Positions 4,263 through 29,965 of a DNA stretch of 39,130 nt are shown in pieces. The DNA lies in contig NZ_AAWL01000016.1 of NCBI RefSeq assembly GCF_000169155.1, positions 15,001 to 54,130 on the forward strand, written 5' to 3'. The position numbers and the translations under genes are program-made. The notes beneath the pieces were generated by a model, which was given only the letters and a program-made list of their open reading frames with translations, had not been told where the DNA came from and made no database searches. The DNA is from Thermosinus carboxydivorans Nor1 (lineage in GTDB: Bacteria > Bacillota > Negativicutes > Sporomusales > Thermosinaceae). Positions within the stretch are counted from its first letter, which is position 1; every line of letters starts with the position of its first letter.

Positions 4263-4955
4263 ATGCAGGGCAGGGATTTTTGCGACCGGCTGCAAAAGCT
4301 GCTGGCCGCTCGACATGGTGATATCGGCAATAAAAGCGACTTTTTCCGCTCTGCTGTTTTACTCCCCTTGGTGGATACCGCCGAGGGTCTGGCAGTGCTG
4401 TTCGAAGTGCGCTCCGGCAACTTGGCCTGGCAGCCCGGCGAAATCTGTTTTCCCGGAGGCAGGATCGAAGCAAGTGACCAGAGTGCATTGGCGGCGGCGG
4501 TAAGGGAAACAGCCGAAGAACTTGGCCTTGCCCCGGCGCAGATCCGCCCGCTGGGGCCGCTGGACTGGGTCATCGGCCAAATTGGGGTATTATTATATCC
4601 CTTTGTCGGCTATCTGGCGGCCGATGTGGCGGACCTCAAACCGAACAGGGAAGAAGTGGCCGAAGTTTTTACTGTGCCGTTGGTCTGGCTTTTGGCTGCC
4701 CAGCCCCAGGTCGGACATATGGAAATGGCTACCCGGCCGCTATCTGACTTTCCCTTCCATCTTTTGGCTGACTATTCGCCGGACTGGAAGCCGCGGATCA
4801 CTTATCCTGTCTGGTTTTACCAATATGGCGCCCGTGTTATTTGGGGACTGACGGCGCGGGTCCTGAAAGGTTTTCTTGACTTGTGCCGGGAAATGGAACG
4901 GCCTTCCGAAAATTTACCAACAAACCCGTCCAAAATTTGCTTGCCTGATCGCTAA
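4263..4955 (+). CDS. NUDIX hydrolase, CoA-pyrophosphatase-like
   Basis: A 230-residue NUDIX protein. The Nudix box runs from about residue 65 to 89: GGRIEASDQSAL followed by RETAEELGL. The spacing (GG-x5-D ... RE-x2-EE-x-G) is that of the CoA-diphosphatase subgroup (NudL/YeaB-like), which cleaves CoA to phosphopantetheine and 3',5'-ADP. Substrate assignment rests on this spacing only. The ATG at 4263 is chosen because GGAGG lies seven bases upstream; the ATG at 4257 touches the ribosome site. It probably forms an operon with apbE. Confidence 0.85.
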   Translation: MQGRDFCDRLQKLLAARHGDIGNKSDFFRSAVLLPLVDTAEGLAVLFEVRSGNLAWQPGEICFPGGRIEASDQSALAAAVRETAEELGLAPAQIRPLGPLDWVIGQIGVLLYPFVGYLAADVADLKPNREEVAEVFTVPLVWLLAAQPQVGHMEMATRPLSDFPFHLLADYSPDWKPRITYPVWFYQYGARVIWGLTARVLKGFLDLCREMERPSENLPTNPSKICLPDR

Positions 4956-5004
4956 GTATGCTTTTGCTTATTTTGACGATGCTATTAATAGCTTGAATTT
5001 CAGT

Positions 5005-5033
5005 TTCCGCCTTGTTAGCCGGGGCGAATTTTT
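5005..5033 (+). terminator. Possible weak terminator after the NUDIX gene
   Basis: TTCCGCC (5005-5011) can pair with GGCGAA (5023-5028) with a bulge and is followed by five T. It is about 50 bases after the stop codon. The stem is short, so this is a tentative call. A separate perfect 12-base palindrome, GCTATTAATAGC, lies at 4981-4992. Confidence 0.35.
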
Positions 5034-5047
5034 AAGCGCAACCAGTC

Positions 5048-7749: not shown

Positions 7750-8256
7750 ATGGCTAAGGTAATGCTGCTAATTGAGGACGGTTTTGAAGAAATGGAAGCC
7801 CTGTATCCTTACTACCGTATGAAAGAAGCGGGTCACACCGTAGATGTGGTCGCTCCGGCCAAAGGCGTTTATAAAGGCAAATACGGCTATCCGCTCACGG
7901 CGACCTTGACGCCGAACGAAGTAAACGTGGCTGATTATGCAGGGCTCATTATTCCCGGCGGCCAGGCGCCCGACCGGATGCGCGTGCATGACGGCCTGGT
8001 GGACCTAGTGAAGCAGGCCGACAAAGCCGGCCTGGTGGTAGCGGCAATTTGCCACGGGCCGCAAATGCTTATTGAGGCCGACATCGTGCGCGGCCGCAAT
8101 GTTACCTGTTATAAGTCCATTTTGACGGATGTTCTCAATGCCGGCGCTATTTACCATGACCTGGAGGTCATCATCGACGGCAAGCTGATTACATCGCGGT
8201 TGCCAGCTGATTTGCCGGCTTTTTGCAAAGAGATCCTAAAATTATTGCCGAAATAA
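7750..8256 (+). CDS. DJ-1/PfpI family protein
   Basis: A 168-residue protein of the class I glutamine-amidotransferase-like fold. The nucleophile elbow is AICHGPQM with Cys101 followed by His102, and an acidic residue sits in GFEEMEA (Glu13/14), as in PfpI and YhbO-type proteins. Family members are described as proteases, glyoxalase/deglycase-type or stress proteins; the activity here cannot be told from sequence. It heads a three-gene operon: 15 bases separate it from the next gene. AAAGGTGTG precedes the start. Confidence 0.87.
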   Translation: MAKVMLLIEDGFEEMEALYPYYRMKEAGHTVDVVAPAKGVYKGKYGYPLTATLTPNEVNVADYAGLIIPGGQAPDRMRVHDGLVDLVKQADKAGLVVAAICHGPQMLIEADIVRGRNVTCYKSILTDVLNAGAIYHDLEVIIDGKLITSRLPADLPAFCKEILKLLPK

Positions 8257-8271
8257 AAAGGGGGAGAACTT

Positions 8272-8568
8272 ATGGCAATTGTGGAAGTGACCATTGCGCC
8301 TCTTGGCGTAGGCACAAGCATCAGCCAGTATGTGGCCGCCTGCCATAAGGTGCTGGAACAGGCCAAAGACCTCAAATACCAGTTGACGCCAATGGCGACG
8401 GTAATTGAAGGCGACCTGGACCGGATTATGGAGGTCATCCGGCAAATGCACGAAGTGCCATTTGAGGCCGGAGCGCAAAGGGTGTCGACTCTCATCCGCA
8501 TTGATGACCGCCGCGACAAGGAATTGACGATGGCGGGAAAAATCAAAGCCGTACAAGAAAAACTATAA
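8272..8568 (+). CDS. MTH1187/YqgV family thiamine-binding-like protein
   Basis: A 98-residue protein of the UPF0045 / MTH1187 family: [14 protein letters not shown] at the start, a conserved [12 protein letters not shown]-type strand (residues 38-49) and a ferredoxin-like alpha/beta layout. Structures of relatives are oligomers that bind thiamine or similar small ligands; a cellular role is not established. GGGGGAGAAC precedes the ATG. It is the middle gene of the pfpI - MTH1187 - copZ operon. Confidence 0.85.
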
Positions 8569-20577: not shown

Positions 20578-21579
20578 ATGTCTTTTCAAAGTAAATTGCG
20601 AAATCACGATAATACTTACCGAGAACTGTTTAAACGGCATCCTGACAACCCCATATTGACCGCCCACGATTGGCCCTATGCTGCCAATACGGTGTTTAAC
20701 CCTGCGGCAACCATGTTTAACGGCAAAGTGCTGCTGTTGGCGCGGGTTGAAGACCGGCGGGGTTTTTCCCACTTAACGAAAGCGATCAGTGAAGATGGGG
20801 TAACAAATTGGCAGATCGACCCTGTTCCCACTTTTGAACCCGACCCGGAACGTTATCCGGAAGAAATCTGGGGGATTGAGGATCCCCGCATAACCTGGAT
20901 TGAAGAATTAGGCAAATGGGCCGTCACGTATACGGCCTATTCCCGGGGCGGTCCGTTGGTATCTTTGGCGTTGACTAAAGATTTTGTTAACTTTGAACGG
21001 CTTGGCCCCATTATGCCGCCTGATGACAAAGATGCTGCGCTTTTTCCGCGGCGGTTCAACGGCAAATGGCTGCTCGTTCACCGGCCTGTTTCGGCCAACT
21101 ATGGTCCGGGGGCACACATCTGGGTATCGTGGTCTGATGATTTGAAATATTGGGGCGACCACCAAATGCTGATTAATGCCCGCCGCGGCGGATGGTGGGA
21201 TAGCAATAAAATTGGCCTTTCCCCGCCACCGCTCGAAACTCCGGAAGGGTGGCTTATCCTTTATCACGGTGTGAGACAGACAGCGGCAGGAGCAATTTAC
21301 CGGCTGGGACTTGCACTGCTTGATCTGGAAAACCCTTTACACGTACTCCGCAGGAGCGATGAATGGGTGTTTGGTCCGTCAGAACCCTATGAGCGGGAAG
21401 GGGACGTCGATGACGTCGTATTCCCCTGCGGCTGGATATTGGACGAAACGACGGGCCAAATCAAGATGTACTATGGTGCTGCAGATACGTGCATTGCTTT
21501 GGCAACTGCTTCACTAAGCGATCTGCTTGAATACATAAAACGATGTCCCGAACCGAAAGAAGAAGACAACCTGATATAA
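20578..21579 (+). CDS. Glycoside hydrolase family 130 protein (mannoside phosphorylase-like)
   Basis: A 333-residue five-bladed beta-propeller type protein. Marks of GH130 are NPILTAHDWPY near residue 24, the NPAA segment (41-44), the GIEDPR active-site motif (99-104) and HRPVSANYGP (residues 164-173), which lines the sugar/phosphate pocket. GH130 enzymes are mostly phosphorylases or hydrolases of beta-1,4- or beta-1,2-mannosides. The exact substrate cannot be read. GGAGG precedes the ATG. It is the first gene behind a CIRCE-controlled promoter and is followed by glycosyltransferase and mannose-phosphate isomerase genes, which fits mannoside metabolism. Confidence 0.9.
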   Translation: MSFQSKLRNHDNTYRELFKRHPDNPILTAHDWPYAANTVFNPAATMFNGKVLLLARVEDRRGFSHLTKAISEDGVTNWQIDPVPTFEPDPERYPEEIWGIEDPRITWIEELGKWAVTYTAYSRGGPLVSLALTKDFVNFERLGPIMPPDDKDAALFPRRFNGKWLLVHRPVSANYGPGAHIWVSWSDDLKYWGDHQMLINARRGGWWDSNKIGLSPPPLETPEGWLILYHGVRQTAAGAIYRLGLALLDLENPLHVLRRSDEWVFGPSEPYEREGDVDDVVFPCGWILDETTGQIKMYYGAADTCIALATASLSDLLEYIKRCPEPKEEDNLI

Positions 21580-23950: not shown

Positions 23951-25054
23951 ATGCTCTATCCGTTGAAGTTCGAGCCGGTATATAAAAGCTACTTCTGGGG
24001 CGGCCGTAATTTGGAAAAGTTGGGGAGGATGCTGCCGGACGGAAAAATTGCTGAAAGCTGGGAAGTGGCGTGTAACTTTGAGGGAATAAGCATAATTGCC
24101 AACGGAGCGTACAAAGGTTTACCGTTATCCCAACTTTTGGCGTTGTTTGGGGAAAATGTGCTGGGGAAGGGGACAGCAAAGTTCCCGCTGCTAATTAAGC
24201 TGCTTGACGCCAATGACCGACTTTCCGTTCAGGTGCATCCTGATGATCGGTATGCCCGGACGGTCGAAAACCAAGACTATGGCAAAAGTGAAATGTGGTA
24301 TGTGCTGGCGGCGCAGCCAGGCGCCAAAATAGTCTACAATCTGAGGGAAGGCGTTATCGGGCGCGACCTTGACCGGCTCGTGAAAACAAAAGAAATAGAA
24401 AGATGGTTTAATTATGTTGACGTATCGGCCGGGGACGCCATTTATATACCGGCCGGTACAATCCATGGGTTAGGCGAAGGAATTATTGTTGTCGAAATTC
24501 AGCAAAATTCTACCACGACATACAGGATCTACGATTATGACCGGACCGACGCAAGTGGCGCCAAACGACCGCTTCATATTGAAAAAGCCAGTGAAGTTGC
24601 TAACTTTAATCGCCAGGATGAAACGGGCAAGGTTGCCGGGCTTGTTGTTGCCTGCGGCCATGGCTCGCGTAAAACATATCTGGTGGCAGAGCGGCATTTT
24701 GCGGTCGAGTTATATGATGTTGCCGGTTCGGTGGAAGAAGTCGCCGACGGTAGCAAGTTTTACGTTTTTACAATTATTGAAGGCGCCGGGGAGGTTCGCT
24801 ATGGCAGTGGGCAAACGGTTTCGGTTTGCGCCGTAGAGACGGTGATGATACCGGCCGCGCTGGGGAGATACTGTTTGGCCGGCCGGTTTAAGGCCCTGAA
24901 AGCATATGTCCCTGACTTGACAGCCGATGTGGTTACGCCGCTCAAGGCTGCAGGCTATTCGAGCACTGAAATTTTCCGGTGCGTCGGTGGCTTGGCAGAT
25001 TTCATACACATAAATACTTACTCCAAAAACAGTTGTCGACTCTGTTCATCATAA
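23951..25054 (+). CDS. manA: Mannose-6-phosphate isomerase, class I
   Basis: A 367-residue cupin enzyme. Zinc ligands are visible: Gln94 and His96 in VQVHPDD, Glu114 in KSEMWYV, and His172 in IPAGTIHGLG. It interconverts fructose 6-phosphate and mannose 6-phosphate, the entry to mannose nucleotides. The C-terminus runs about 40 residues past the usual YVPDL end of short bacterial forms. The last 37 bases overlap the 3' end of the opposite-strand ABC ATPase gene. GGGGGG lies before the ATG. It is the final gene of the CIRCE-led sugar operon. Confidence 0.92.
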   Translation: MLYPLKFEPVYKSYFWGGRNLEKLGRMLPDGKIAESWEVACNFEGISIIANGAYKGLPLSQLLALFGENVLGKGTAKFPLLIKLLDANDRLSVQVHPDDRYARTVENQDYGKSEMWYVLAAQPGAKIVYNLREGVIGRDLDRLVKTKEIERWFNYVDVSAGDAIYIPAGTIHGLGEGIIVVEIQQNSTTTYRIYDYDRTDASGAKRPLHIEKASEVANFNRQDETGKVAGLVVACGHGSRKTYLVAERHFAVELYDVAGSVEEVADGSKFYVFTIIEGAGEVRYGSGQTVSVCAVETVMIPAALGRYCLAGRFKALKAYVPDLTADVVTPLKAAGYSSTEIFRCVGGLADFIHINTYSKNSCRLCSS

Positions 25055-26298
25055 GCAAAAAGCTCGGCGTAGCGTCCCCAGTCAATCAAAATATCCAAAT
25101 GACTTTGCACTTCTGCCGGTGGGAAGGAACGGGCCAAAATGTTTTCGAAAAACTCGATATTCATGCGTTTGTTTGACTTGGATTGTAATATGGCTAGGAT
25201 TTTTTTGACGGCGGTCACGTTTTTGACAAGTTGGGTCCGGAAGAGCTCCTTGCGTTCTAAAACAGAAGCTTGGGCGAACCGTATGCCTTCAGGTGTAAGT
25301 TCAATGTCGCCGTCTACGACTTTAGCAAATTTAAGGAGGGTTGCACCTTCTACAATTGGAAAGAAATCTTCACTGTCCATCGTGAAACGGTCAGCCAGCT
25401 TGTACAAATCCGTTTTTTCGTTTAAGTCTTCTAATAATTCCAAAAACCCTGTCAGTGCTCCGGCAGATACGTGGGGAATGGCGGCAATTTCTCGGTCTTC
25501 AGGCAAGGGAATTTTACGTAAGTCAGCTGGTTCTCGTTTCATCATCAGTGAATATAATTTATCGACAAGACCAACAAAAGCCGGAGCGTTTTTATCCCGC
25601 CAGTGGGGCAAGGTAACGGGCATATCGGCATTGATGCGGGCAGGGCTGCCGGACACTACCAGAATGCGGTCGGCCATATAGACAGCTTCTTCGATACCAT
25701 GGGTCACCATGATAATGGCTTTAGTAGGGATTTTTTTGTCGCGCCAGAGTTCAAGGATGTCGCGCCGCAAGTTTTCGGCTGTCAGCACATCAAGGGCGGA
25801 AAATGGTTCATCCATCAAGAGTACATCCGGGTCGCTCACAAGGGCGCGTCCTAAACCAACCCGCTGCTGCATACCGCCGGATAGTTCCTTCGGGTAAGCG
25901 CTTTCAAAACCATCGAGGCCGATCATATCAATGACATGTAGTGCTTTTTCTTGTTTTGCTTTATCGGACATCGCCTTAGCTTCCAGGCCCAACATGACGT
26001 TTTCTAATACCGTCAGCCAGGGGAAAAGGGCGAAGGATTGAAACACCATGGCAGCGCCAGGATTGACACCGTGATATTCTTGGCCCAAGTAGGTAACTTT
26101 GCCACTAGAGGCCGGCGTTAGGCCGGCGATAATGCGGAGCAGGGTAGATTTTCCTGACCCGGACGGGCCGAGAATGGCGATAAATTCTCCGGCGTAGATG
26201 GAAAGGTTAATGCTGGCGAGGACGGGAATTGCATTACCGCCGCCCATATCCCATTTTTTTTGCACATTTTTCAGTTCAATTAATGGTTGTTTATTCAT
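25018..26298 (-). CDS. ABC transporter ATPase with AAA-associated C-terminal domain
   Basis: A 426-residue protein. Residues 1-255 are a NitT/TauT-type ABC ATPase: Walker A GPSGSGKS (44-51), Q-loop VFQSFALFPW, signature LSGGMQQR (139-146) and Walker B VLLMDE (159-164). Residues about 270-426 are an AAA-associated, helical C-terminal domain found in a distinct group of such ATPases, possibly regulatory. It is the second gene behind an M-box riboswitch, 16-19 bases after the permease. No substrate-binding protein is encoded. Start may be ATG 26298 or GTG 26301; AGGAGG lies 7-10 bases upstream. Confidence 0.9.
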   Translation of the reverse strand: MNKQPLIELKNVQKKWDMGGGNAIPVLASINLSIYAGEFIAILGPSGSGKSTLLRIIAGLTPASSGKVTYLGQEYHGVNPGAAMVFQSFALFPWLTVLENVMLGLEAKAMSDKAKQEKALHVIDMIGLDGFESAYPKELSGGMQQRVGLGRALVSDPDVLLMDEPFSALDVLTAENLRRDILELWRDKKIPTKAIIMVTHGIEEAVYMADRILVVSGSPARINADMPVTLPHWRDKNAPAFVGLVDKLYSLMMKREPADLRKIPLPEDREIAAIPHVSAGALTGFLELLEDLNEKTDLYKLADRFTMDSEDFFPIVEGATLLKFAKVVDGDIELTPEGIRFAQASVLERKELFRTQLVKNVTAVKKILAILQSKSNKRMNIEFFENILARSFPPAEVQSHLDILIDWGRYAELFAYDEQSRQLFLE

Positions 26299-26317
26299 CA
26301 CGGGTTCCCCTCCTGTG

Positions 26318-28060
26318 TTAATTCAGATGATATTTGGTTTCGGCTAGGTGATAGAGTCTGCGCCAGAATAGGCGGTTAATAATAATCACAAAGGCGCACA
26401 TGACGATGATGCCGCCGAGAATTCCCGACCAATCACCTGCTTCCGTTACCTGGCCAATAAAGTTGCCCAGACCGGTAGCATTGAGTTGTTGGTCTTTCCA
26501 AGTCACCAATTCGGATACAATGCTGGCGTTCCAAGCGCCGCCGGAGGCAGTAATGCAACCGGTTATAAGATGGGGAAAGATGGCTGGCAGGATGAGTTTG
26601 CGCCATTTTTGCCAACCAGAGAGTTTGAAGACGGTGGATGCTTCTTTGAGGTCAGTCGGAATTGCCATTGCGCCAGCAATGACGTTAAACAAAATATACC
26701 ATTGGGTGCCTAGCATCATAAGAAGAATGGAGCCAAGCTCAAAATTAATCCCGTAGTTCAGATACAAAACTACGACGAAGGGATAAATCATATTAGCTGG
26801 GAAGGAAGCGGTCACTTGAACAATAGGTTGAAAAAATTTACTTAGGCGCGGATTTGTGCCAATCCACACACCGACCGGCACTGTCCACAACACACCAATG
26901 AGACTGGCGGCTGTGACTCTTCCCAGGGTATAAAAGCCGAGAGTGATGATTTTTACTAGCTTATCAAAGCCCATGGAGGCAATCAAGAGGATCCCTTGGT
27001 AGGTTTGCTGACCAACATAGTATATTGTTGCCAGCAACAAAGCCCATTTCATTGCTACGGTTAGATAAGAAAGCGGAGTAAGATGTTCAATTTGGGCGGC
27101 TACTTTGCCGCTAACGCGGGCGCAACGATTGAATGCGCTATCGATTAGTTGGGTGATAGGGCCGAAGAAATATTTTTGCGCCCATGCTACGAAGACCGCC
27201 CGCTTAAGAATGTCATAGACAAGGGAAGTTGAAACCTCGATGGCTTCAGTTCGCTCCATTTTGAATTTTTGCGACCATACTACTATAGGACGCCAGAATA
27301 GCTGGTCAACCAGCATAATCATAATAATCATGGTAAGAATTGCGTAGCCAACGGCTGACATATTTCCTTTTTCCACAGCGGCAGCCATGAAGGAGCCAAC
27401 GCCAGGAAGGCGGATGTCTTGGTTGAGAACGGTGATGGCTTCACTGGCTGCAAGGAAGAACCAAGCGCCTCCAAAGGACATCATGCTGTTCCATACCAGA
27501 CTAATCATGGCGAATGGTACTTCCAGTTTAATAAACCGTTGCCACCAGTTAAGGCGCAACACGGCAGCCGCTTCTTTTAGATCTTGAGGCAAGGTAGTGA
27601 GCGAGTGGTAAAAACTAAAGGTCATGTTCCAACACTGACCGGTAAAAATGGCGAAGATGGAGGCTAATTCTACGCCTAACAGGCTGTTAGGAAACAGACC
27701 AATAAACATGGTAATGGTAACGGAAAGAAAGCCCAGTACAGGCACGGATTGCAAAATATCTAGCAGTGGGACCAGTACTTTTTCGGCGGTGCGGCTTTTT
27801 GCAGCAATACTGCCGTATATAAAAGTAAAAAGGAGCGAGGCCCCATAGGCAATAAACATTCTTAGGAGCGACCGACCAGCATAGTAAGGCAAGTCGGCCG
27901 GATCGGTAGAAATTTCGATTTGGTTTTCGGGAGAAAAGGGAATAACCATACCGGCGCCTAAGTAAAGAACCGAAAACAGGAGGGCAAATACGAATGCGAT
28001 CACCAGTATGTCAATAAGACCAAACCGGCGAGAGGGTATGTGCGAAGTAAATACAGCCAT
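26318..28060 (-). CDS. Fused two-domain ABC transporter permease
   Basis: A 580-residue membrane protein with two complete BPD-type permease domains in tandem, roughly residues 60-260 and 360-575. Each carries an EAA-like loop: DLKEAAAVLRLNWWQRF in the first and DLKEASTVFKLSGWQKW in the second. The fusion replaces the usual permease homodimer. It resembles nitrate/sulfonate/taurine permeases but has no binding-protein partner here. The ATG at 28060 follows AGGAAG by eight bases; the GTG at 28069 overlaps that site. The operon is preceded by an M-box riboswitch, so the substrate is probably linked to Mg2+ supply (inference). Confidence 0.9.
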   Translation of the reverse strand: MAVFTSHIPSRRFGLIDILVIAFVFALLFSVLYLGAGMVIPFSPENQIEISTDPADLPYYAGRSLLRMFIAYGASLLFTFIYGSIAAKSRTAEKVLVPLLDILQSVPVLGFLSVTITMFIGLFPNSLLGVELASIFAIFTGQCWNMTFSFYHSLTTLPQDLKEAAAVLRLNWWQRFIKLEVPFAMISLVWNSMMSFGGAWFFLAASEAITVLNQDIRLPGVGSFMAAAVEKGNMSAVGYAILTMIIMIMLVDQLFWRPIVVWSQKFKMERTEAIEVSTSLVYDILKRAVFVAWAQKYFFGPITQLIDSAFNRCARVSGKVAAQIEHLTPLSYLTVAMKWALLLATIYYVGQQTYQGILLIASMGFDKLVKIITLGFYTLGRVTAASLIGVLWTVPVGVWIGTNPRLSKFFQPIVQVTASFPANMIYPFVVVLYLNYGINFELGSILLMMLGTQWYILFNVIAGAMAIPTDLKEASTVFKLSGWQKWRKLILPAIFPHLITGCITASGGAWNASIVSELVTWKDQQLNATGLGNFIGQVTEAGDWSGILGGIIVMCAFVIIINRLFWRRLYHLAETKYHLN

Positions 28061-28123
28061 TTGAATCACTTCCTAAATCAAATTTGGTTGTTTTGCCGAC
28101 AATACGCATTGACATGTACTTGT

Positions 28124-28168
28124 TTAATGTCGTAGTATTACGTTTTGATCCGTCTGTATCCATAACAT
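28124..28168 (-). CDS. Possible 14-residue leader peptide after the M-box terminator
   Basis: GGGAGGTGG (28179-28171) is a strong ribosome site with no long gene behind it. An ATG at 28168 opens the 14-codon frame MLWIQTDQNVILRH. A second ATG at 28163 opens a 50-codon frame that runs across the permease start and ends at 28011. Either could be a regulatory leader frame. Only the ribosome site supports translation. Confidence 0.3.
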   Translation of the reverse strand: MLWIQTDQNVILRH

Positions 28169-28192
28169 ACCCACCTCCCTCTTATATAACGC

Positions 28193-28222
28193 AAAAAAGA
28201 CCTCCCCATGCGGGAAGGTCTC
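28193..28222 (-). terminator. M-box expression-platform terminator
   Basis: On the minus strand AGACCTTCCC pairs with GGGGAGGTCT around GCAT (28221 to 28199) and is followed by TTTTTT (28198-28193). It lies between the M-box aptamer and the permease gene and would stop transcription when Mg2+ is bound. Confidence 0.9.
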
Positions 28223-28261
28223 GTGAACAATAGAAAAAATGCATAACAAAAAAGCGTGATC

Positions 28262-28437
28262 ATTTAACCTCCCCACTCGTTTGAGCTTTGGCACTGTATA
28301 ACGTAGAGTCAAACAAAATGCTCAGCCACCTTAAGTAAAACCTTATGCCGGTAATACCTGTTCTACCCATTGGCGTCTCTCGACATTTCCGGGCAGTGGC
28401 CTATGTTTATACAGGAGCCTCACCTAACGAGGAAGTA
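28262..28437 (-). ncRNA. M-box (ykoK) magnesium riboswitch
   Basis: The minus strand carries the conserved M-box blocks in order: CGTTAGGTGAGGCTCCT (about 28430-28414), CACTGCCCGGAAATGTCG (about 28399-28382), GACGCCAATGGGTAGAACAG (about 28378-28359), the GCATAAGG region and the closing GTGCCAAAGCTC block. The ends CCTCGTT and AACGAG form P1. M-box RNAs fold when Mg2+ is plentiful and turn off Mg2+ transporter genes (established). Here it precedes an ABC transporter operon rather than mgtE, mgtA or corA. Confidence 0.95.
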
Positions 28438-28468
28438 CTATTTACTTGCATTTCTATAAACTATGAAC

Positions 28469-28497
28469 ATTATAATGCTGGTGCAACGCAATGTCAA
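28469..28497 (-). promoter_or_regulatory. Consensus promoter of the M-box/ABC operon
   Basis: On the minus strand TTGACA (28497-28492), 17 bases, TATAAT (28474-28469): a perfect sigma-A promoter. Transcription should start about 25 bases before the aptamer. A transposon remnant begins 20 bases upstream of the -35 box. Confidence 0.92.
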
Positions 28498-28516
28498 TAA
28501 TTCGCAATCACTCAGT

Positions 28517-29240
28517 TAAAATGTTACTTTGTAAAATGTTACTTGCGGTTCGTCGCTCGGCCACTTCGCCTATACGCTAACGGTGACGGATGTAGTCTCC
28601 GGCTACACCCGCAGACGTGCGCTGCTAGGAAAATCCCAACTTGCCGTTCTCCGTGAACTCAAGCACATTATCGCCGAGTGGCCTATGAAACCCTGGGCCA
28701 TCCACAGTGATAACGGTCAGGCATTTTTAAACGCCCATTTGAAAACTTTTTGCACTGCGAACAACATTCACTTCACGCGTAGTCGTCCTTATCGAAAAAA
28801 TGACAATGCCCACGTGGAGCAGAAAAATGGCTTTCTTGTACGCCAGCTAGTCGGCTATGAACGCTATGACCGTCCGGAACAAGTAGAGTGGCTGAACTCC
28901 ATCTATGCTCTGCATGATTTATACTTCAATTACTGTCTGCCTACACGCAAGCTGATCCGAAAGGAGCGTTGCGGGGGACGTGTGAAAAAAACATTCGACA
29001 CGGCCAGAACACCCGCAACACGGTTGATCGAAACCAACGCGCTGTTGCCAGAACAAATCCAAAAGTTGAAGGCGTGTCAAACAGCCTAAGATCCACTTAC
29101 GTTGCATCGCCAGTTGGAAAAGGTGCTTTCTCGCCCCGTGACGTCTGCCACTACTACCATCTACCCAGACAAGGCTGTAACAGCTCATCTGGGTAACAAA
29201 ATTATATGAGTGATCTATTATCCTTCGGTAACATTTTTAA
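28517..29240 (+). mobile_element. Degraded insertion sequence of the integrase-catalytic (DDE) type
   Basis: A left-end sequence, TAAAATGTTACTT, occurs twice (28517-28529 and 28532-28544). The reverse complement of the right end (29228-29240, GTAACATTTTTAA) matches it with one extra base, giving terminal inverted repeats about 720 bases apart. Between them lies only the C-terminal part of a transposase. The element has lost its 5' half by internal deletion and carries a stop codon, so it is inactive. Confidence 0.6.
28544..29209 (+). pseudogene. Truncated integrase-core transposase
   Basis: The frame opens within GHFAYTLTVTDVVSGYTRR without a proper start; the N-terminal domain is missing. 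The DDE triad is visible: Asp in TVTD, Asp in AIHSDNGQAF and Glu in NAHVEQKN. A TAA at 29087-29089 interrupts the frame after KACQTA. The same frame then continues with DPLTLHRQLEKVLSRP to a TGA at 29207-29209, so the TAA is a nonsense mutation in an originally longer protein. Family is an IS481/IS3-like integrase-core group; the exact family is not certain. Confidence 0.75.
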
Positions 29241-29518
29241 ATGAGTTGACACGTAACTCTGTTTGTATTTTCTATCATTAGCGTTGTATAAAAACAGAAG
29301 CGCAATGTCAAGAGGAAAAAGCAAACGTACTTAGATAAGACACAAGCAATATCTCTGAGAATAATATTCAGTTTTAATCTTTTCTTGGAGTTAGTTTAAA
29401 ACAACGTCGGTATAAGGTTAACCCTTTATCTATATTTCTAGTATTATCCAGACTCTTTGTCGCTAAGCTACAAAATACAGATATATCCCTCCATCTGCAG
29501 TATCGAGAAGGCTTGTGC
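29241..29518. other. Intergenic region between two IS remnants, nothing recognised
   Basis: An A+T-rich stretch with no supported coding frame, hairpin terminator or repeat that I can identify. It probably consists of decayed mobile-element sequence. Confidence 0.4.
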
Positions 29519-29866
29519 CTAATCTTTAAATGATCGCCTACCTCGGTTTGTTCCAGCCGGCTCCCGGCTTAAGGTAGCTACCAATTCACTAAATGTCTGG
29601 TACAAGAATGTTTGGATTGCTCGCAACATTTCTAGCAGGGAATGTTTTTTTGGTAGTTGTTGGCATATGTTTTGCAACAGAGAATACCTTATCAAGGCAA
29701 ACCAAATTTGTCCATATACGGGATTTTGGTTGATACCGAAAAAATGTTTAACAATAAAATTTTGCTTAATCCATTTGAAGACCAGTTCTATTTGCCAGCT
29801 CAAGCGATGAATATTATTGATGTCTGTTGCAGGCAATGCCAAATCATTGGTCACGATAAACTTACC
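29519..29866 (-). pseudogene. IS4-family transposase C-terminal remnant
   Basis: The minus-strand frame reads FIVTNDLALPATDINNIHRL, then WQIELVFKWIKQN and NPVYGQIWFALIRY. This matches the C-terminal DDE part of IS4-family transposases, where the Y-x-x-R-W-x-I-E-x-x-F-K signature holds the catalytic Glu; here the Arg is replaced (LSWQIE). The N-terminal two thirds are absent, with frame breaks upstream of 29866. Confidence 0.75.
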
Positions 29867-29965
29867 CGTTCACCTTGTTTTTGTTGAAATTTTTCCAAAG
29901 GAAAGGCATCAAAAACTTTAAAAACGAATTTATTGCGGCGCTACTGATATTACCTCCCGATTGGC

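Follow-up and report, generated by a model that had tools for sequence, protein, structure and literature searches.

The window analysed here is a stretch of 39,130 nucleotides from Thermosinus carboxydivorans Nor1. Its minus strand holds a Mg2+ riboswitch of the M-box class, a leader open reading frame (ORF) and the genes of a fused ABC permease and an ABC ATPase, all lying in a cassette that also carries transposase remnants. The features discussed below are, in window positions:

28469-28497, minus strand: sigma-70-type promoter, TTGACA-17-TATAAT, with 12 of 12 consensus matches
28265-28438, minus strand: M-box (ykoK) Mg2+ riboswitch aptamer, RF00380, 163.1 bits, E 7.8e-38
28261-28276, minus strand: 3' strand of helix P1, a possible antiterminator strand, in a duplex with the 5' arm of the terminator
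28197-28222, minus strand: intrinsic terminator of the expression platform, 11 pairs and then a U-run
28171-28179, minus strand: Shine-Dalgarno (SD) sequence of the leader ORF, GGGAGGTGG, in a duplex of -12.7 kcal/mol with the anti-SD, whose letters are assumed by us
28011-28163, minus strand: leader ORF of 50 codons (MDTDGSKRNTTT...), its last 50 nt overlapping the permease start (+1 frame)
26318-28060, minus strand: fused two-domain ABC permease of predicted type I importer fold, with two BPD_transp_1 stretches
25018-26298, minus strand: ABC ATPase with a C-terminal AAA-associated domain (ABC_tran and AAA_assoc_C)
25048-25404, minus strand: AAA_assoc_C domain (PF09821), 132.1 bits against a cut-off of 27.6
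24995-29955, no strand assigned: cassette of ATPase, permease, leader ORF, M-box and transposase remnants, absent from the sister genome G020
28583-29089, plus strand: fragment of an integrase-core (rve) transposase, 27.2 bits, below the cut-off of 32.6
29519-29854, minus strand: fragment of an IS4-type transposase, 27.7 bits, cut-off 23
4913-5035, plus strand: 3' remnant of an NrmT-like gene, 65% identity over 40 aa, with an E-value of only 4.8 on its own

A consensus promoter, an M-box and a terminator in front of a fused permease and an ATPase with an AAA-associated domain had been proposed from the letters of this DNA alone, with a search by RF00380 as a check. All of these elements were confirmed. 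The RF00380 match on the minus strand is full length (model positions 1-169 of 169), lies far above the gathering score of 44 and is the sole match at E 0.001 in the genome, a draft of 96.56% completeness. The scan for promoters and terminators finds about one terminator-like and 1.7 promoter-like sites per shuffled sequence, and the two sites in the window therefore count for their place and quality; promoters elsewhere in the region were near chance in the same scan. The P1 3' strand and the terminator 5' arm form 11 pairs at -20.3 kcal/mol against a shuffle mean of -9.8, with 0 of 200 shuffles as strong, and folding of the whole leader gave the aptamer and the terminator as separate hairpins (z -2.08). 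This is the usual layout of an OFF-switch. Among 19 ABC-linked copies the M-box pairing is conserved, 12 of 45 consensus pairs having changed on both sides with the pairing kept. A terminator-like hairpin occurs in 17 of 18 ABC loci, and in 7 of the 18 at most 10 of 200 shuffles matched the P1/terminator duplex. Sequence comparison supports the M-box before the ABC pair as real and, by its position, Mg2+ regulation of the pair. With plentiful Mg2+ the M-box would fold, P1 would hold the antiterminator strand and the terminator would form and stop transcription; at low Mg2+ the P1 3' strand would instead pair with the terminator 5' arm and permit read-through. Aptamer, pairing and terminator-antiterminator layout are shared with other RF00380 leaders, from which the window differs in the ABC pair downstream and in the leader ORF behind the terminator.

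The permease ORF spans 26318-28069 and relatives favour a start at 28060, the one originally given. At E 0.001 the permease matches BPD_transp_1 alone in Pfam, with no sequence membership in CorA, MgtE, MgtA or NrmT. The best fold matches of its predicted model are FbpBC, CmpB and NrtB, with PotABC also among the matches, and among solved permeases the bicarbonate type CmpB and the nitrate type NrtB come nearest in sequence; together with the ATPase, the modelled fold points to a type I ABC importer. Among curated models the permease scores best with nitrate ntrB and the ATPase with a 2-aminoethylphosphonate ATPase, both far below cut-off; the cut-offs of the nitrate models TIGR01183 and TIGR01184 are missed by the permease (86.2 vs 209.05) and the ATPase (180.9 vs 291.8). 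The ATPase also resembles polyamine ATPases, and the AAA_assoc_C fold has no convincing PDB relative by sequence (best E 0.16). With NrtBCD and CmpBCD the pair has in common the type I permease fold and sequence similarity in the second half; it differs in its fused duplicated permease, its scores below the nitrate cut-offs, its Mg2+ switch and its lack of an adjoining binding protein. The last point, made already in the sequence-only reading, holds more widely. No binding-protein gene was found among the scanned neighbours in the window, and none is conserved beside the pair, since no Pfam family among the first 25 of 136 listed matches more than 3 of 87 flanking genes, which were taken with crude gene calls from 159 candidates in named genomes and leave room for a distant binding-protein gene.

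Two observations concern the surroundings of the pair in other genomes. In the loci read from families f23 and f99 (L058-L069) AAA_assoc_C has a gene of its own (about 160 aa), at most 10 kb from the ATPase. An OprB-type porin gene adjoins the pair, upstream of the permease, in Bradyrhizobium and a Burkholderiales MAG (L116, L147 and L164; 3 of the 87 flanking genes), where outer-membrane entry is a possible role.

Recurrence of the ABC pair behind M-boxes

The association of M-box and ABC pair recurs, in answer to the genome search that had been suggested for it. Among 28 genomes of the order AAA_assoc_C occurs in 4, and each of the 4 has a same-strand M-box about 2.8 kb ahead of the gene. 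A draw of 398 genomes from the phylum yielded AAA_assoc_C in 28, and the permease directly follows an M-box in 16 of these, 11 of them from the one family f23. Eight further genomes of the draw have the pair without an adjoining M-box (G349, G396, G354, G258, G217, G332, G185 and G235; in G354 the permease is split over two ORFs). In the remaining four the contig begins just before the permease (G318), the locus is a fragment (G270) or the domain matches are weak and come without the pair (G177, G213).

Named genomes gave at least 589 matches, and 9 of the best 80 loci carry a same-strand upstream M-box while 71 do not, as judged with a model built from the 19 ABC-linked M-boxes whose E-values are rough. 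The nine include, from the Bacillota, Pelosinus, Paenibacillus marchantiophytorum and a MAG (L102, apparently G092 again); from other phyla, Citrifermentans bremense (Geobacteraceae) and Ktedonobacteria and Anaerolineae MAGs (Chloroflexota); and from the Actinomycetota, Nocardia seriolae and two Tsukamurella, in all three of which mgtC lies between M-box and permease. In a quick tree of 104 permeases, which has several long branches, the distribution of the M-box label takes 10 changes, of which supported branches force at least 7. The many members without an M-box, namely the eight pairs of the draw and the 71 named loci, mean that Mg2+ control does not extend to the whole family. No other riboswitch class reached its Rfam gathering score before 12 M-box-less ABC loci. 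Streptomyces orinoci (L108) has two M-boxes, at 4311-4484 and 8248-8421, around its ABC pair; one precedes an Nramp-family gene and the other faces away from the permease toward a gene of no assigned family.

The pair had also been put forward as a possibly undescribed class, and in that form this is not supported, as a YKOK/M-box before the ABC genes Bbr_0406-07 of Bifidobacterium breve, with a COG4986 permease, is already in print together with a suggested role in metal-ion homeostasis (Bottacini et al. 2017, PMC5746004). We use the label COG4986 for the permease by analogy with that report (PMC5746004). The arrangement is like that of the window. B. breve is one locus, known to us from its description and mentioned briefly in the text concerned (PMC5746004), whereas recurrence, replacement and the anatomy of the switch are described here. 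Overall, the sequence-only reading is partly supported: the association, noted once in print, now proves from sequence comparison to recur, and the pair to change places with known Mg2+ importers.

Exchange with known Mg2+ importers

An exchange of this kind is visible within the genus of the window. DNA of the sister genome G020 (locus L293) matches the window up to 24994 and resumes at 29956 with about 80 nt between, so that it lacks a cassette of about 4.96 kb, and neither an M-box nor AAA_assoc_C was found in G020. That genome has an NrmT-like ORF open over 435 aa, whose product shares 64% identity with an M-box-linked NrmT and 26% with the better NRAMP match of the window's genome. The window keeps about 120 nt of the 3' end of this gene, and its DNA match to G020 resumes inside the NrmT ORF. 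NrmT is an Nramp-related protein that was found through its M-box and whose Mg2+ transport is backed by experiment (PMC4072509); its family is unrelated to the ABC pair, and it was likewise an unexpected family behind an M-box (PMC4072509). Compared with G019, from another family, identities are 93% for the ATPase, 86% for the permease and 71% for PBP2, the single core gene used; the values for G026 and G027 are 63 and 64% (permease), 65 and 67% (ATPase) and 66 and 68% (PBP2). The transposase remnants and the empty site in G020, beside the identities to G019, make horizontal gain of the cassette likely. The DNA common to the window and G020 also includes a gene for a GH130-type mannooligosaccharide phosphorylase (20578-21579) beside a glycosyltransferase gene.

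The same switch precedes different importers in other families as well. Behind the M-box, f31 has the ABC pair in G048 and G092 and MgtE in G195 and G220; f99 has the ABC pair in G203, which lacks MgtE, and an MgtE pair in G228, G325, G368 and G408; and 11 of the 12 f23 genomes of the draw with an M-box have the ABC pair while the twelfth, G378, has CorA. For 89 of the 95 M-box leaders taken up on grounds other than the ABC pair, the gene that follows resembles MgtE (or its N-domain/PRC type), CorA, an MgtA-like P-type ATPase or NrmT, the classes being assigned by BLAST (E 1e-3) with one or two reference sequences per class. In some Actinomycetota mgtA or mgtC stands in the same gene string as the pair. 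With 919.1 and 1014.1 bits over a cut-off of 610.75, an MgtA-type ATPase lies directly upstream of it in Mycobacterium sp. 141 and an Amycolatopsis MAG, at loci where no M-box was found; Amycolatopsis circi has one (952.4 bits) at a distance of about 0.8 kb upstream. These ATPase genes occupy L119 2155-4803, L135 2225-4897 and L122 1486-4053. Tsukamurella asaccharolytica has MgtC (PF02308, 125.3 bits) between M-box and permease and, by BLAST and inspection of the sequences, MgtC takes the same place in the other Tsukamurella and Nocardia. In G349, a genome of 99% completeness, the pair occurs and none of MgtE, CorA, MgtA and NRAMP exceeds its cut-off; there is no M-box either. Replacement is not strict at the genome level, since CorA occurs in 48 of 60 genomes tested (twice in the window's genome) and G189 and G335 of f23 have MgtE elsewhere in addition to the pair.

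The replacement of MgtE, CorA and NrmT behind one switch and within the genus of the window, with the mgtA and mgtC links, favours a cation over an anion role and to this extent upholds the divalent-cation function first proposed for the pair. In standing in for known importers behind the same switch the pair resembles a Mg2+ importer, and we infer that it is most likely a type I ABC importer of Mg2+ itself that works without a substrate-binding protein. A demonstration of Mg2+ transport by such a pair was not found in the literature searched.

Other substrates are conceivable. The structures and curated permease models closest to the pair are of bicarbonate, nitrate and taurine types, and single relatives adjoin a Na/Pi cotransporter (L074) or a PhoD-type phosphatase (L143), as would suit the import of an anion or organic ligand needed under Mg2+ scarcity, such as a Mg2+-chelating or Mg2+-bound acid, phosphate or bicarbonate. 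We hold this to be unlikely in view of the substitutions just described, of mgtA or mgtC in the same gene string and of the flanking genes, none of whose listed families recurs beyond the count given above. Import of polyamines or of another cation (Mn2+, Co2+, K+) that replaces Mg2+ in starved cells would agree with the resemblance of the ATPase to polyamine ATPases, with PotABC among the fold matches and with one ornithine/arginine decarboxylase neighbour (L139). All polyamine importers known to us use binding proteins, however, and no gene for one is conserved beside the pair, which renders this possibility slighter still. The transposase remnants, and the absence of the cassette from G020, might finally suggest that the pair landed by chance behind a resident M-box and is merely co-repressed. 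This is very improbable: the cassette itself includes the M-box, a search of G020 gave none, and the pairing recurs in several phyla.

Leader ORFs behind M-boxes

The leader ORF of the window, which the sequence-only reading had passed over, may be the more novel part of the locus. It begins MDTDG, joins a strong SD to an acidic start in the manner of mgtQ and is probably translated. Salmonella mgtQ is an ORF of 8 codons with AGGAGG before mgtB, in which Asp2 and Glu5 are needed and ribosome destabilisation promotes mgtB translation (PMC8092293). The likeness lies in the strong SD, Asp2, Pro or Glu close behind and a Mg2+ transporter downstream, and is closest for leaders of the MDDPEADL type (PMC8092293). 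mgtQ itself sits between mgtC and mgtB, in an account whose available parts mention no M-box, and drop-off at the leader ORFs would follow by analogy with it (PMC8092293). At low Mg2+ the acidic start of the window's leader ORF may in this way make ribosomes drop off, which would free the overlapped permease start and act as a second, translational Mg2+ check. The drop-off mechanism was reportedly described by Chadani et al. in 2017. The leader ORF has the permease in the +1 frame in 6 of 6 ABC loci with such an overlap (the window, L052, L053, L054, L055 and L091). Selenomonas L093, by our own reading, is a seventh, with an ORF beginning MDAGADGSRDD... over the permease start; no M-box was found there, yet a terminator-like hairpin and the leader ORF are kept. 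A degenerate M-box was sought at this locus, but a search with default filters gave none at E-values up to 10. In two f31 genomes (L056, L057) a second strong-SD ORF of 23 codons, MHCVKALYAG..., lies between leader ORF and permease.

Such ORFs recur widely among M-box leaders. We compiled 120 leaders, 15 from the order, 25 ABC-linked or other and 80 extra ones picked by hand, roughly one per genus and exclusive of the ABC-linked leaders already included; the near-copy f23 ABC loci (L062, L065-L069) and L102 (= G092) were left out. An SD-supported ORF precedes the first gene in 88 of the 120, with first-gene starts called by script and wrong in a few rows (L052, corrected; L230; and L231, where the called gene begins MDGGPRW). 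The called gene start lies within 100 nt of the aptamer in 18 of the 32 leaders without an SD-supported ORF, against 6 of the 88 with one. Codon 2 of the strongest-SD ORF is Asp or Glu in 59 of 88 (GAT 28, GAC 23, GAA 7, GAG 1); for comparison, the share in the same leaders is 13 of 119 for main genes and 7.6% for the 1039 starts with a weak SD. The corresponding Fisher p-values, 2e-17 and 5e-38, are optimistic because the rows are related. We also applied a strict rule, which asks for an acid among residues 2-4 and for two or more of D, E and P among residues 2-6. It was passed by 63 leaders (L003 and L223 through chance-like matches) and failed by 57. Sorted by downstream gene, the passes are 21/35 for MgtE_N/PRC, 10/19 for MgtE, 12/20 for CorA, 3/8 for MgtA-like, 3/10 for NrmT, 9/18 for ABC, 3/3 for MgtC and 2/7 for unassigned genes. 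None of 30 TPP riboswitch leaders of the same phylum passes and 9 have any SD-supported ORF, in a set kept from a search of 81 genomes; TPP leaders tend to be the shorter ones, 17 of these 30 exceeding 100 nt.

The ORF does not belong to the ABC genes as such, an idea that was rejected since only 4 of 80 M-box-less ABC loci pass the strict rule. It was absent from the f23 and f99 ABC loci tested. A variant count found it in 5 of 27 M-box ABC loci, a low figure because a stop near the permease start was demanded and f23 loci without the ORF were included. The three actinobacterial mgtA genes at which no M-box was found are preceded by ORFs with a strong SD that seem similar on inspection (MAEGSSS, MTGEGSS and MTGEGSS). 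Between M-box and gene, translated or ribosome-protected uORFs have been described in mycobacteria: Rv1805A, a conserved uORF behind an M-box with a peptide called mycobacteria-specific and a role left open (PMC12810186), and a ribosome-protected uORF with an M-box before mgtE of M. abscessus (PMC4974804). Rv1805A, as presented there, belongs to a translational platform with Rho (PMC12810186). The leader ORFs of the present set differ from it in lying mostly behind terminators across the Bacillota, with few loci in other phyla, and in their acidic/Pro start. Acidic/Pro leader ORFs behind M-boxes outside mycobacteria were not recognised in the literature searched, in which spelling variants such as 'Mbox' may have escaped us, and within those bounds the ORF appears from its distribution to be a new general element of M-box leaders.

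Whether these ORFs sense Mg2+ is a separate matter. Their starts might merely favour strong initiation, or they might encode a small functional protein as proposed for Rv1805A, whose function was left open (PMC12810186). The accessibility of the main-gene start, which shows no clear difference from shuffles, suits such a non-sensing role: 37 of 61 leaders lie below their shuffles (means 0.349 and 0.383), and the window is more open than its own. The acidic/Pro start is rare, however, in main genes and in weak-SD starts of the same leaders and missing from all 30 TPP leaders, and the peptide is conserved at its first residues only, as a nascent-chain effect would need. A role other than sensing is accordingly somewhat doubtful to us, if a serious contender, and by analogy with mgtQ the leader ORF may be a second Mg2+ sensor.

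Proposed Mg2+ control of the uptake operon

Taken together, the locus is best explained as a Mg2+-repressed uptake operon of an ABC Mg2+ importer with the leader ORF as a possible second check, to which we give a probability of roughly 0.7. Its products would assemble into an ABC importer of type I that needs no soluble binding protein and brings in Mg2+ with ATP, a further class beside CorA, MgtE, MgtA/B and NrmT. The broader proposal, that such pairs are widespread dedicated Mg2+ importers and also that M-box leaders in general carry a ribosome-destabilising acidic/Pro ORF, is more tentative, and we would put it slightly below even odds.

NrmT provides a precedent, in which an M-box exposed an unexpected family and experiment then showed Mg2+ transport (PMC4072509). 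If confirmed, an ABC importer of Mg2+ would bring ABC transporters into the set of bacterial Mg2+ uptake systems, and a large permease family, put close to anion importers by sequence models, would gain a function. If the leader ORF acts as proposed, Mg2+ would gate both transcription and translation of Mg2+ importers, and riboswitch and nascent peptide, two principles of Mg2+ sensing known separately, would be joined in many bacteria.
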